This document shows positions 4,673 to 23,840 of a DNA stretch of 31,787 nt, one piece after another (the stretch's first letter is position 1; every line of letters starts with the position of its first letter). The translations under genes and the position numbers were made by a program. The notes beneath the pieces were generated by a model. It saw nothing but the letters and a program-made list of their open reading frames with translations, did not search any database and had not been told where the DNA came from. The DNA lies in the IMG/VR virus record IMGVR_UViG_3300017752_000084, positions 1 through 31,787 of that record, one strand, 5' to 3'. The stretch comes from a virus.

Positions 4673-5383
4673 ATGCCATCAGCTAATCAACCAGTTATCG
4701 TACAACAACCTTATATTGCTAACGCAAGTTATCCTGCAAATGCAAGACAACCATATATTGCTAATGGAAGAAATCCATTTACATATAGAAATCCATTTAC
4801 ATATCGTGTACCTTATATTGCGAATGCAAGGCAACCTTTTACCTACAGAAATCCTGTAAGTTATCGTGTTCCCTATATTGCAAATGCTCAAACACCATTC
4901 ACATACAATGCAAGGTCACCATTTACTTATCAGAATAATGCTACAGGTCGGAATCCGTTCACATATCAACATAGAGTTCCCTTTACATATAACGCAACTG
5001 GTAGAACACCTTTCACTTATCAGAATAGACAACCTAGTACATATGAGACACAAGGTCAAACACCCTTTACATATCAGAATAGGTCACCTTTTACATATAG
5101 AAATCCTGCAAGTGCTAGACAACCTTACATTGCTAATGCGAGGCAACCTTCTACATACAGTCATAGGTCACCTTTCACATATCAGAATAGAACACCTTTT
5201 ACATATACCGTTCCTGTTCCAGGTACCAGACAAATCGGTCCTGTGGCAAAAGTTAAACAAGTTTGGATTAATGATAACGGAACATTAAGAAAAGCAAGTG
5301 AAATGTACATAAATAATTCTGGAACTGCATCAAAGGTTCATCAGACTCAACCCACAGCACAATTAACAGAACCTAATTCATAA
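4673..5383 (+). CDS. Repeat protein B: Pro/Tyr repeats with C-terminal WINDNGT-type tail
   Basis: The protein has 236 residues. After about ten residues it is almost wholly composed of Pro-anchored repeat units (residues 12-179). A short C-terminal segment then reads VKQVWINDNGTLRKASEMYINNSG. This looks like a tandem pair of the 'W/YxNxxGTxK' elements common in phage fibre proteins, related in style to the N-terminus of repeat protein C (11817). The start at 4673 has a GGAG about 7 nt upstream. There is no signal peptide, membrane segment or catalytic motif. Its place directly after protein A suggests that the two products act in the same structure. Fibre or stalk function is inferred, not shown. 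Confidence 0.8.
   Translation: MPSANQPVIVQQPYIANASYPANARQPYIANGRNPFTYRNPFTYRVPYIANARQPFTYRNPVSYRVPYIANAQTPFTYNARSPFTYQNNATGRNPFTYQHRVPFTYNATGRTPFTYQNRQPSTYETQGQTPFTYQNRSPFTYRNPASARQPYIANARQPSTYSHRSPFTYQNRTPFTYTVPVPGTRQIGPVAKVKQVWINDNGTLRKASEMYINNSGTASKVHQTQPTAQLTEPNS
4706..5209 (+). repeat. Pro/Tyr repeat array in protein B (22 units)
   Basis: The 168 encoded residues parse by hand into 22 units of 6, 8, 10 or 12 residues, including NPFTYR, VPYIANAR, TPFTYQNR, VPFTYNATGR and SPFTYQNNATGR. Every unit has even length. Two longer units carry an inserted NATG, which could be read as an insertion of four residues that keeps the two-residue register. Confidence 0.9.
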
Positions 5384-12737: not shown

Positions 12738-13454
12738 ATGGCAATTGGATTCTATTTTGCACCTGCAATAGGAAATAAAAGGGGACCTTTCACTTATCAA
12801 GCAAGGACACCTTTTACTTACAGTGCAAGGACACCGTTTACCTACAATGCTAGGTATCCTGCTAATGCTCAATCTCCTAGTAATGCGAGACAACCATTTA
12901 CATATAATGCTAGATATCCTGCGAATGCAAGACAACCTAGTAATGCTAGACAACCGTTTACCTACAATGCAAGGTATCCTGCTGGGTACAGAAATCCTGT
13001 ATCTGCACAGCAACCATACATTGCGAATGCTAGACAACCATTTACATATAATAATAGGTCACCTTTCACCTATAGAAATCCTGTATCTGCACAGCAACCA
13101 TATATTGCAAATGCAAGAAGTCCCTTTACATATAGTAATAGACAACCTGGTACATATGCTAGACAAGGTCAGACTCCGTTTACATATCAAAACAGACAAC
13201 CTGGTACATATGCTAGACAAGGTCAGACTCCGTTCACTTATCAGAACAGGTCACCTTTCACATATGCAAGACAAGGTCAAACACCATTTACCTATCAGAA
13301 CAGACAACCTGGTACATATGCTAGACAAGGTCAGACTCCGTTCACTTATCAGAACAGACAACCTGGAACATATGCAACACAAGGACGAACACCAGTTATC
13401 CGTTGGGATGGTAGTTTATCACAAACTTGGCCAGCAACTCCAGTCTCATCATAA
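12738..13454 (+). CDS. Repeat protein D: almost wholly Pro/Tyr repeats
   Basis: The protein has 238 residues: a short hydrophobic N-terminus (MAIGFYFAPAIGNKRG), repeats from residue 16 to 217, and a short C-terminus ending TWPATPVSS. The second half is dominated by an 18-residue super-repeat, QPGTYARQGQTPFTYQNR, with a 54-bp DNA period. A strong AGAGGAG ribosome binding site lies 13 nt upstream of the ATG. The N-terminus is too short and lacks the charge pattern for a convincing signal peptide. It follows protein C by 33 nt, as protein B follows protein A. Structural or adhesive role inferred; no family recognised. Confidence 0.8.
   Translation: MAIGFYFAPAIGNKRGPFTYQARTPFTYSARTPFTYNARYPANAQSPSNARQPFTYNARYPANARQPSNARQPFTYNARYPAGYRNPVSAQQPYIANARQPFTYNNRSPFTYRNPVSAQQPYIANARSPFTYSNRQPGTYARQGQTPFTYQNRQPGTYARQGQTPFTYQNRSPFTYARQGQTPFTYQNRQPGTYARQGQTPFTYQNRQPGTYATQGRTPVIRWDGSLSQTWPATPVSS
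12783..13388 (+). repeat. Pro/Tyr repeat array in protein D (26 units)
   Basis: The 202 encoded residues parse by hand into 26 units of 6, 8 or 10 residues, all even. From 13143 onward the units pair into 54-bp super-repeats starting at 13143, 13197, 13251, 13305 and 13359. Copies 2 and 4 are nearly identical in DNA, while copy 3 between them is diverged. Confidence 0.9.
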
Positions 13455-18371: not shown

Positions 18372-18379
18372 TATAAATA
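18372..18379 (+). promoter_or_regulatory. T4-type late promoter TATAAATA upstream of gene 13
   Basis: An exact element lies in the 42-nt gap before 18408, with predicted start near 18385. An 8-bp dyad, ATAGTAAT (18377-18384) with ATTACTAT (18402-18409), spans from the promoter to the start codon. Its left arm would be just upstream of the late start site. Confidence 0.8.
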
Positions 18380-21127: not shown

Positions 21128-21523
21128 ATGCCCAAAGATATAGATAAAAAATTAGATGATGTCTTAGACATTCAATCTACAATCAAAAAGGAAACCACTG
21201 CAGTGGTAATTCCTAAAGAAAGGTCTCAAAACATTGAGACTGATTACAAATACACCAGAGAAAACTTATATGGTCTTGTTGAAAGAGGACAAGATGCAAT
21301 CGAAGGAATCTTAGATGTCTGTAAAGAGACTGAGAATCCTCGTGCATATGAAGTTGCAGGTCAATTAATTAAAACAGTTGGTGAGACTGCAGAGAAACTC
21401 ATCGATGTTCAACAAAAGTTAAAAAAACTTGAAGATGAGGACCAGAAAGTAAATACACAACACAACCATTTATATGTTGGGTCAACTGCAGAATTACAGA
21501 AGTTCTTAAAGAAAAACAAATAG
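21128..21523 (+). CDS. gp16: Small terminase subunit gp16
   Basis: The 131-residue protein is highly helical. It has an N-terminal LDDVLDIQST, then TDYKYTRENLYGLVERGQDAIEGILDVCKETENPRAYEVAGQLIKTVGETAEKLIDVQQKLKKL, the central coiled-coil core of the gp16 family. This is followed by QHNHLYVGSTAELQKFLKK. gp16 recognises DNA and stimulates gp17. It lies between gene 15 and a methyltransferase gene, so here it does not directly abut gene 17 as in T4. Confidence 0.93.
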   Translation: MPKDIDKKLDDVLDIQSTIKKETTAVVIPKERSQNIETDYKYTRENLYGLVERGQDAIEGILDVCKETENPRAYEVAGQLIKTVGETAEKLIDVQQKLKKLEDEDQKVNTQHNHLYVGSTAELQKFLKKNK

Positions 21524-21526
21524 ATT

Positions 21527-22273
21527 ATGATACCAAACGAAGTAAGGTTTTTTAAAACTGCCTATTGCTTTACCGACTCTCAAAGAAACTCAGCATATGA
21601 AAGTTGGATATCAGAGAATGTTAAAGACAAAATAGTCATAGACCTAGGTGCTGGTTCAGGCATACTATGTTATCTTGCTGTCAAGTATGGTGCAAAGAAA
21701 GTTTATGCACTAGAAAGAAGAGGTGAACTTATCGATAGAATGAAAGAGATTCTAGGAGATAGTGTAGAGTACATTCATGGTGATTTACTTGAAACAGAAT
21801 TACCTAAATGTGATATCTATTTACATGAATGGTTAACATCAGAGTTGTGGAATGAAAAGAGATTCCTTAAAAACTTCTATGAAGAAGGAGATAAAGAACT
21901 CGAAGTTGGTCACATACTTGATTTAGTAGAGTATGCAACGAAACATGACTTTATAGATAAACTATATCCAAATAAAGTAGAACTATCGGTCATCAGAGGG
22001 GAATCGATTGGGTGTCCAGAAGATATAGGTTATGATAAACACTCTAAATATTCCAAAGAGTTTTTACAGGATTATTATCCTGATATAAAGGAAAATCACA
22101 TATACAAGAATAGTATAGAACATAAAAGAGTATTTTTGAGAGGAGATTTAAAGAGTTTGAAACACTATAGAACAACTGATTATTTGGGTTGGAGTTTCTC
22201 ATTCGATGGTAAATATGAAATATCAAATCATTTGCCTATATCTCATTGGGGTTTAAGACATGGTACAACCTAA
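21527..22273 (+). CDS. PRMT-like SAM-dependent methyltransferase between terminase genes
   Basis: The 248-residue protein shows most of the marks of protein arginine methyltransferases. Motif I is VIDLGAGSG (residues 37-45) and the acidic residue after the second strand is E63 in VYALE. An HEWLTSELWNE stretch (100-110) has its two Glu (E101, E110) nine apart, as in the PRMT double-E loop, and PISHWG (237-242) matches the THW loop. The protein ends seven residues after SHW, so the C-terminal part of the usual PRMT beta-barrel is absent. These enzymes methylate arginine from S-adenosylmethionine. The target is unknown. It starts 3 nt after gene 16 and its 3' end overlaps gene 17 by 14 nt, so it is translated with the terminase genes. 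Confidence 0.8.
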   Translation: MIPNEVRFFKTAYCFTDSQRNSAYESWISENVKDKIVIDLGAGSGILCYLAVKYGAKKVYALERRGELIDRMKEILGDSVEYIHGDLLETELPKCDIYLHEWLTSELWNEKRFLKNFYEEGDKELEVGHILDLVEYATKHDFIDKLYPNKVELSVIRGESIGCPEDIGYDKHSKYSKEFLQDYYPDIKENHIYKNSIEHKRVFLRGDLKSLKHYRTTDYLGWSFSFDGKYEISNHLPISHWGLRHGTT

Positions 22274-23840
22274 AAACGAGGGTTACTTAGGTAACACTTT
22301 AGTCAAAAGGTCAGGTATTGAAACTAAGTATACCGACCAGGAAATGCAGGAGTATGTGAAATGTTCACAAGACCCTTGTCATTTTATTGAGAACTATACA
22401 CAAATTATATCACTAGATGAGGGTATGGTACCCTTTAAACTTCGTGGGTACCAAGACAAACTCATCGAACACTACAACTCAAATCGTTTTAATATCGTTC
22501 TTGCATCTCGTCAGAGTGGTAAATCAATCACATCTTGTGCGTATCTATTATGGTTTTTACTCTTTAATCCAGAAGTCACTGTTGCTGTTTTGGCAAACAA
22601 AGGTGCAATTGCAAGAGAAATGATTGCAAGAATGGTAACCATGTTGGAAAGTGTTCCCTTTTTCCTACAACCTGGAGTAAAAATACTTAACAAGGGGTCC
22701 ATAGAATTTGCAAACGACTCAAAAGTAGTCGCTGCGGCAACTTCCAGTTCCAGTATCCGTGGATTGTCTATCAACCTCTTGTATCTTGACGAGTTTGCTT
22801 TCGTAGACGATGCAGAGACATTCTATACTGCAACATATCCTGTTGTCACATCTGGTAAAGATTCTAAAGTTATTATCACATCTACTGCAAATGGTGTTGG
22901 TAATATGTTCTATAAGATATATGAAAGTGCAGTTCACAACCAATCTGAATATAAACACTTTCTTATTAACTGGTTCGATGTACCAGGAAGAGATGACGAA
23001 TGGAAGAAAGAGACAATTGCAAATACATCAGAAGCACAATTTGAACAAGAGTATGGAAACTCATTCTTAGGAACAGGTAATACTCTTATAAATTCTAATA
23101 CATTATTGGGTTTAATGGCAAAAGAACCAGATTGGAATAAAGATGGTGTTAAAGTATATGAGAAACCTAAAGAAGGACACACATATATCACTACTGTTGA
23201 TGTATCTAAAGGTCGTGGAATAGACTATTCTACATTTACTATTATGGACATATCAGTGAAACCATTCAGACAGGTTTGTACCTATAGAGATAATATGATA
23301 TCTCCTATGTTATTTCCAGACCTAATTGCAAAGTATACTAAACCATATAACGAATCATTAGTAATCATTGAGAACAATGCAGAGGGTGGAATGGTTGCAA
23401 CACAACTACATTATGACATAGAATATCCAAATGTCTTTGTTCAAGGTATGAGTAAAGCAGAAGATATCGGTGTGACAATGACTAAACGAATTAAAAGAAT
23501 CGGTTGTTCAACATTAAAGGAATTACTAGAAGAAAATAGAATGTCGATATGTGATAGAGATGGCATCACCGAGCTCATGACTTTTATAAGTAAAGGTAAC
23601 AGTTTTGAAGCAGATAGAGGGTTTCATGACGATATGGTCATGAATCTAGTATTATTTTCATGGTTTGTCACAACAGACCATTTCTATCATTTGACTGATA
23701 GACAGGTTAAAGAACTGTTATATGCAGAACAACAAAAAACAATAGAAGACGATATATTGCCACCAGGAATATTCGATACAGGACAAAACAATACAGAGTC
23801 CTTTGTCGATGCTGATGGAGATAGATGGTTTTTGGATTAA
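22260..23840 (+). CDS. gp17: Large terminase subunit gp17 (ATPase and nuclease)
   Basis: The protein has 526 residues, shorter than T4 gp17 (610). Walker A is SRQSGKS at residues 83-89, Walker B is LLYLDE (Asp177, Glu178), and the coupling motif is TSTAN. The C-terminal RNase H-like nuclease has Asp314 in TTVDVSKGRG, Glu in IIENNAEG, and Asp457/458 in FHDDMVMN. It docks on the portal, cuts concatemeric DNA and drives packaging with ATP. The start overlaps the methyltransferase gene by 14 nt. It ends before a 98-nt gap holding two late-promoter-like elements. Confidence 0.97.
   Translation: MVQPKNEGYLGNTLVKRSGIETKYTDQEMQEYVKCSQDPCHFIENYTQIISLDEGMVPFKLRGYQDKLIEHYNSNRFNIVLASRQSGKSITSCAYLLWFLLFNPEVTVAVLANKGAIAREMIARMVTMLESVPFFLQPGVKILNKGSIEFANDSKVVAAATSSSSIRGLSINLLYLDEFAFVDDAETFYTATYPVVTSGKDSKVIITSTANGVGNMFYKIYESAVHNQSEYKHFLINWFDVPGRDDEWKKETIANTSEAQFEQEYGNSFLGTGNTLINSNTLLGLMAKEPDWNKDGVKVYEKPKEGHTYITTVDVSKGRGIDYSTFTIMDISVKPFRQVCTYRDNMISPMLFPDLIAKYTKPYNESLVIIENNAEGGMVATQLHYDIEYPNVFVQGMSKAEDIGVTMTKRIKRIGCSTLKELLEENRMSICDRDGITELMTFISKGNSFEADRGFHDDMVMNLVLFSWFVTTDHFYHLTDRQVKELLYAEQQKTIEDDILPPGIFDTGQNNTESFVDADGDRWFLD

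Follow-up and report, generated by a model that had tools for sequence, protein, structure and literature searches.

What does a methyltransferase gene placed between the two terminase genes of a T4-type phage encode, and on what would its product act? The stretch of DNA analysed here (the window, 31,787 nucleotides) carries such a gene within a T4-type run of neck, terminase, sheath, tube, portal, protease and major capsid genes. From the sequence, an earlier note had taken the product for a protein arginine methyltransferase (PRMT) rather than a DNA or small-molecule methyltransferase. To our knowledge, protein arginine methylation by PRMTs has been studied almost wholly in eukaryotes.

A PRMT-like protein encoded between terS and terL

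PHROG and Pfam matches identified TerS upstream and TerL downstream of the gene, in agreement with the placement given in the earlier note, and the overlap of its frame with gene 17 by 14 nt was confirmed. Translation of the window from the ATG to the stop gave a protein of 248 aa. Motif I, the acidic post-I residue (E63) and the two glutamates E101 and E110, nine residues apart, all lay where they had been claimed, as did the SHW loop near the C-terminus (residues 239-241). The features are collected in Table 1.

Table 1. Features of the terminase region of the window and sequence elements of the methyltransferase
Feature	Coordinates	Strand	Basis
TATAAATA, resembling a T4-type late promoter and preceding the neck-terminase run to which the methyltransferase belongs	18372..18379	+	pattern match only
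Terminase small subunit TerS (gp16)	21128..21523	+	PHROG 445 (phrog_445), 5.5e-44
PRMT-like class I SAM methyltransferase, 248 aa	21527..22273	+	ORF, sequence, profile and fold searches
733 bp inserted in comparison with L075, a relative whose terS-terL site is empty	21527..22259	+	blastn, flanks 88% and 93% identical
D17-x2-R20-x3-Y24, counterpart of the PRMT D..R...Y segment	21575..21598	+	aligned with PRMTs
Motif I VIDLGAGSG, residues 37-45, predicted SAM binding	21635..21661	+	alignment with PRMTs
E63, post-I acid (ribose-binding Glu in PRMTs)	21713..21715	+	conservation
Double-E loop E101-WLTSELWN-E110, proposed guanidinium clamp	21827..21856	+	conserved; aligns with PRMT double-E
P148, equivalent to the proline conserved between the domains of PRMTs	21968..21970	+	conserved; aligns with PRMT proline
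S239-H240-W241, THW-loop counterpart	22241..22249	+	profile alignment opposite THW
14-nt overlap of methyltransferase 3' end and terL 5' end	22260..22273	+	ORF coordinates
Terminase large subunit TerL (gp17)	22260..23840	+	Pfam Terminase_6N, 7e-23

The assignment to PRMTs was borne out by sequence, profile and predicted fold. A single-sequence phmmer search against PDB sequences gave a best E-value of 8e-10 and a profile hmmsearch against the PDB ranked PRMT3 first (1.5e-12); nearly all matches listed in either search were PRMTs, aligned without shift across motif I and the double-E. When the phage profile was compared with a profile of seven bacterial PRMTs, the two aligned over their full length (99.5%, E 2.4e-23), pairing D17, R20, E63, E101, E110, P148 and GW with their PRMT equivalents and setting SHW opposite THW. 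The C-terminal half alone scored 20.7 in such a comparison against a maximum of 16.5 among 30 column-shuffled decoys, a modest support. The AlphaFold2 model of the window protein (pLDDT 86.5, pTM 0.86) retrieved only PRMTs among its best 50 Foldseek matches in the PDB (E around 1e-10, prob 1.00), and the same held for the best 50 of an independently modelled relative about 29% identical to it (L093). A structure match outside the PRMTs, which had been named as evidence against the assignment, thus did not appear among the best matches of two lineages.

The window protein is nevertheless a reduced PRMT-like variant and not a canonical PRMT, because the superposition of its model on PRMTs is loose (TM 0.47-0.62, around 0.5; rmsd about 12 A), its barrel stops after the HW loop and PRMT_C (PF22528) finds no match. 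The profile matched none of 14 phage records even at E 10, and only seven residues separate SHW from the C-terminus, so that the part of the barrel beyond SHW is indeed missing as the earlier note had stated. At the place of the dimerisation arm, the model has only a 10-residue helix (174-183) between long strands; type I PRMTs are stated to require homodimerisation (PMC8623767). The sequence FFKTAY at residues 8-13 resembles the type I helix X YFxxY in the close family, with a different spacing, and is lost in distant relatives. The double-E stretch HEWLTSELWNE matches only in part the full PRMT consensus SExMGxxLxxExM (PMC12925635). In PRMT2, an Arg contacts the SAM carboxylate, a Glu contacts the ribose and the double-E forms salt bridges (PMC8623767). 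Judging from sequence and model, the window protein probably works like a PRMT, although the full barrel, a defining PRMT feature, is absent.

The putative catalytic residues are conserved under purifying selection

Scans of viral contigs recovered about 40 close relatives of the methyltransferase and many distant ones. The residues that never varied among 22 aligned homologues, which are 66-85% identical to the window protein, were D17, R20, Y24, E63, E101, E110 and P148, together with the core of motif I, GW222 and SHW; loss of the double-E and SHW residues in close homologues, the other finding that would have spoken against a PRMT, was therefore not seen. This invariance also indicates that the ORF and its motifs did not arise by chance. 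In a set of 20 sequences that extends to 25% identity, both Glu and both Trp never changed, nor did the R of D..R or the inter-domain proline; the D of D..R and the H of the HW loop were kept at 90% or more. The post-I position was invariably E63 in one alignment of relatives and D in some distant ones. The SHW loop varied among relatives to THW (L041, L042, L083 and L093), NHW, NQW, NSW, NNW and SSW, and its H was variable outside the terS-terL slot (NQW, NSW, NNW). PRMT5 likewise has an FSW loop. Pairwise dN/dS values were 0.12-0.29 in most pairs, which denotes purifying selection; TerS and TerL gave 0.05-0.07.

The sequence itself is not new, since UniProt D6PIP9, a viral protein without a functional name in the tables searched, is 98% identical and thus practically the same protein, already deposited. 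A tblastn search of 50,697 annotated phage records returned no real relative: its matches were generic SAM-motif or chance hits, among them a P-SSM2 gene that sits in a sugar-biosynthesis cluster. The scan of a genome collection gave three weak matches, confined to the SAM motif. A defence role was considered and set aside, as the only PADLOC match, to mad2, covered 65 residues of a generic SAM domain. psbA was not found in 14 related contigs, which are partial, so this gene gave no sign of a cyanophage.

The gene is a mobile cassette

Among related contigs carrying both terminase genes, a homologue occupied the terS-terL junction in 41 of 72 and the junction was empty in the other 31, so that the synteny suggested earlier (16-methyltransferase-17) recurs in part of the group and is lacking in the rest. 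Most slot homologues overlap terL by a length similar to the 14 nt seen here. By blastn against the empty site of L075, the insert begins exactly at the place of the terL ATG. Three contigs whose TerS and TerL are about 93% identical to those of the window have no such gene (L074, L075 and L079), and three others with equally similar terminases (L076-L078) have a version of the methyltransferase only 34% identical. Seven contigs with an empty junction yielded no copy elsewhere. In C48C1, the nearest named phage by TerL (55%), terS and terL adjoin without a methyltransferase gene. With an RSCU correlation of 0.90, its codon usage gives the gene no foreign mark. The gene is a mobile cassette, and searches of Pfam and PHROGs assigned no nuclease family (HNH, GIY-YIG) to the window protein; no nuclease was found in the terS-terL slot either. 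After a short methyltransferase gene, the slot of three contigs (L108:2468-3007, also L121 and L127) contains a further ORF, which is about 180 aa long and matched nothing in Pfam or PHROG.

Related enzymes also occur between the ribonucleotide reductase genes nrdA and nrdB. Two contigs (L028:3987-5726 and L039:3984-5750) encode there fusions of 580-589 aa whose methyltransferase part falls within the window clade. The fusion partner is a PHROG-2954-like domain with an HxD...H oxygenase-like motif, a reading made by eye and from PHROG 2954, itself labelled ferrochelatase; Pfam and PDB searches with this N-terminal domain returned nothing useful. A second, deep clade also lies near ribonucleotide reductase (RNR) genes, between nrdA and nrdB in L227 and L228 and upstream of nrdB in L046. 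Deep phage PRMT-like groups were seen in L046, L227, L228, L211, L231, L234, L047-L049 and L051-L058, near nrdB or adjoining a helicase, a ClpP-like head protease or a sheath-stabiliser-like gene.

Expression, substrate and alternative readings

The late-promoter-like TATAAATA sites and the place of the gene in the packaging run suggest that the methyltransferase is expressed late. The window has eleven exact sites on the + strand (3085, 5396, 9082, 9974, 11784, 17970, 18372, 23893, 26465, 29125 and 29146), and many of them, like late promoters in T4, lie a short way ahead of structural genes. These same two features could point to an enzyme aimed specifically at virion or packaging proteins, a special case of arginine methylation that excludes no other and to which we give rather low odds. 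RG and RGG motifs are few (only three RGG in the window), closely related enzyme domains lie between nrdA and nrdB, and phages with TerS and TerL about 93% identical lack the gene or carry a version of it that is 34% identical. Since related domains occupy the nrdA-nrdB junction, the location of the gene is no pointer to terminase or to fibre proteins. The terminase and virion targets raised in the earlier note thus found no support, and the arginines of the fibre repeats have nothing in their favour beyond arginine content. The presence of related enzymes in both packaging and nucleotide-metabolism operons, together with their fast turnover, makes a neighbour-specific target such as terminase less likely; a host or broadly available protein suits a gene that turns over rapidly and changes place better than terminase itself does. 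Two arginine-rich proteins with very little K are encoded upstream of the neck genes, at 12738-13454 (10.5% R) and 4673-5383 (8.5% R), and from their composition they are conceivable substrates.

The scarcity of RGG, with no RGG-rich protein in the window, and the smaller surface that a reduced barrel and short arm leave for a protein in the model would also suit an enzyme with PRMT-type fold and guanidinium clamp acting on something else, be it a free guanidino compound, a short peptide or another nucleophile. We hold this to be unlikely, because, by sequence and by fold alike, the great majority of the solved structures that it matches are enzymes acting on protein arginine.

Catalysis itself could be questioned from the slot proteins that have lost their active site. 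Counting unique complete sequences in the terS-terL slot, with contigs cut short set apart, 43 had both E and [ST]HW, 14 had none of them and 0 were mixed. The degenerate proteins were monophyletic in the tree (support 99/98), and their confinement to a single clade argues for one loss event rather than many. One of them (L124) is near full length without catalytic residues, while others have only 178-200 aa. L081, L082, L102, L111, L121, L124, L125, L127 and L129 have lost both Glu and HW, and most of them the barrel as well. From these sequences, the joint loss of the Glu pair and HW fits a single functional unit, and the clade, which is under purifying selection (dN/dS 0.15-0.34), is a candidate group of phage pseudoenzymes. 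Catalytically dead PRMT 'prozymes' such as TbPRMT3 are known (PMC12925635). Such persistence without active-site residues could mean that the window protein, too, acts chiefly as a partner or regulator, for instance of terminase, and not as a catalyst, with SAM binding as a relic. We judge this improbable, since no catalytic residue is missing from the window lineage or from about ten further deep lineages; moreover, the 31 empty slots and the related copies at nrdA-nrdB show that the gene is not a required part of the terminase. Finally, an ordinary rRNA, ribosomal-protein L11 (PrmA) or nucleic-acid methyltransferase is very improbable, given that the matches to RrnaAD (25.1 bits, cut-off 24) and PrmA (23.3, cut-off 22) barely exceed the Pfam cut-offs and span only 30-65 residues at the SAM site instead of the whole family domain, that the N6-adenine N-x-P-Y type motif is absent (the position reads LHEW) and that PRMTs rank higher in both sequence and fold searches.

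Discussion

The explanation that we consider likely is a reduced, phage-adapted PRMT-type enzyme with arginine clamp chemistry, carried as a promoter-less cassette and transcribed late with the packaging genes. By homology to PRMTs, its Rossmann domain would hold SAM through motif I, E63 and R20, while the guanidinium of the substrate arginine would be clamped between E101 and E110 with the SHW loop behind. D17 and H240 would be the likely proton relay, a role that we presume from work on PRMT1 and PRMT3. The methyl group would pass to a guanidino nitrogen, with catalysis, a protein substrate and the product type all deduced from these likenesses. The promoter-less gene would move among tight gene-pair junctions, terS-terL and also nrdA-nrdB, and in the window phage it would be transcribed together with the late packaging genes. 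On sequence and model, the window protein most likely N-methylates protein arginine late in infection; here catalysis, arginine, the protein carrier and late expression are what we infer, while the kinship in sequence, profile and fold, the conservation, the purifying selection and the presence, absence and shifts of place of the gene are what the analysis shows.

A broader proposition, for which we see about even chances, is that uncultured marine T4-like phages harbour a large, hitherto unnamed radiation of reduced PRMTs that methylate arginines of host or phage proteins and move between homing-endonuclease-type junctions (terS-terL, nrdA-nrdB), sometimes as oxygenase-like fusions, and that include a conserved pseudoenzyme clade. 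If true, arginine methylation would be a phage strategy. Our literature search found nothing on phage PRMTs and no paper using the phrases bacterial or prokaryotic PRMT; what appears to be new here is the assignment to PRMTs, along with the mobility, the radiation and the clade of pseudoenzymes. Because many uncultured marine phages retain all the key active-site residues, the idea that phages drive arginine methylation has become open to test. A compact phage enzyme with a complete clamp and without the rest of the barrel would show which part of a PRMT is truly needed, and the natural occurrence of intact forms, fusions and forms stripped of their catalytic residues, several sharing one slot, makes the benefit to the phage directly testable.

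Comparison with known systems

The phage protein shares with the type I-like PRMTs (PRMT1, PRMT3, CARM1, PRMT6, PRMT8 and yeast Hmt1) the Rossmann domain, motif I, the post-I acid and the D..R segment, as well as the double-E spacing of 9, the inter-domain proline, a THW-like loop, the order of these elements and the predicted fold. It differs in being phage-encoded, in reading SHW where they read THW, in its size (248 aa against a PRMT catalytic core of over 300) and in its chain, which stops after the HW loop where the PRMT barrel goes on. Bacterial PRMT_C-containing proteins have the same catalytic elements and align with the phage profile over its full length but, unlike the phage protein, they have a complete barrel recognised by PF22528, are chromosomal and are in some cases fused to TPR-like repeats. 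Such bacterial PRMT-like proteins, as judged from sequence, are uncommon but real. Among 398 sampled Pseudomonadota genomes, 11 (L151-L161) gave PF22528 scores above the cut-off, some of the proteins having TPR-like repeats. The TbPRMT3 prozyme resembles the degenerate slot clade in being retained without double-E and THW; it is found outside phages, as the partner of an active PRMT.

The junctions have their own counterparts. In T4, the homing endonuclease gene mobE occupies the nrdA/nrdB junction (PMC2988022). Homing endonucleases are known from both kinds of junction, near terminase as well as RNR genes (PMC10448857). The nrdA-mobE-nrdB arrangement is the same kind of junction, whereas the PRMT-like cargo has no nuclease domain. 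Millard et al. 2009, as cited in PMC5083919, described a hyperplastic region of cyanomyoviruses. The marine cyanophage S-RIM32 has hypothetical genes between gp16 and gp17, a variable cargo in the same junction. Upstream of gp17, S-CAM1 carries a 2OG oxygenase and G6PDH, and P-TIM40 carries ptoX and an endonuclease, where the phage described here has a PRMT-like cargo.
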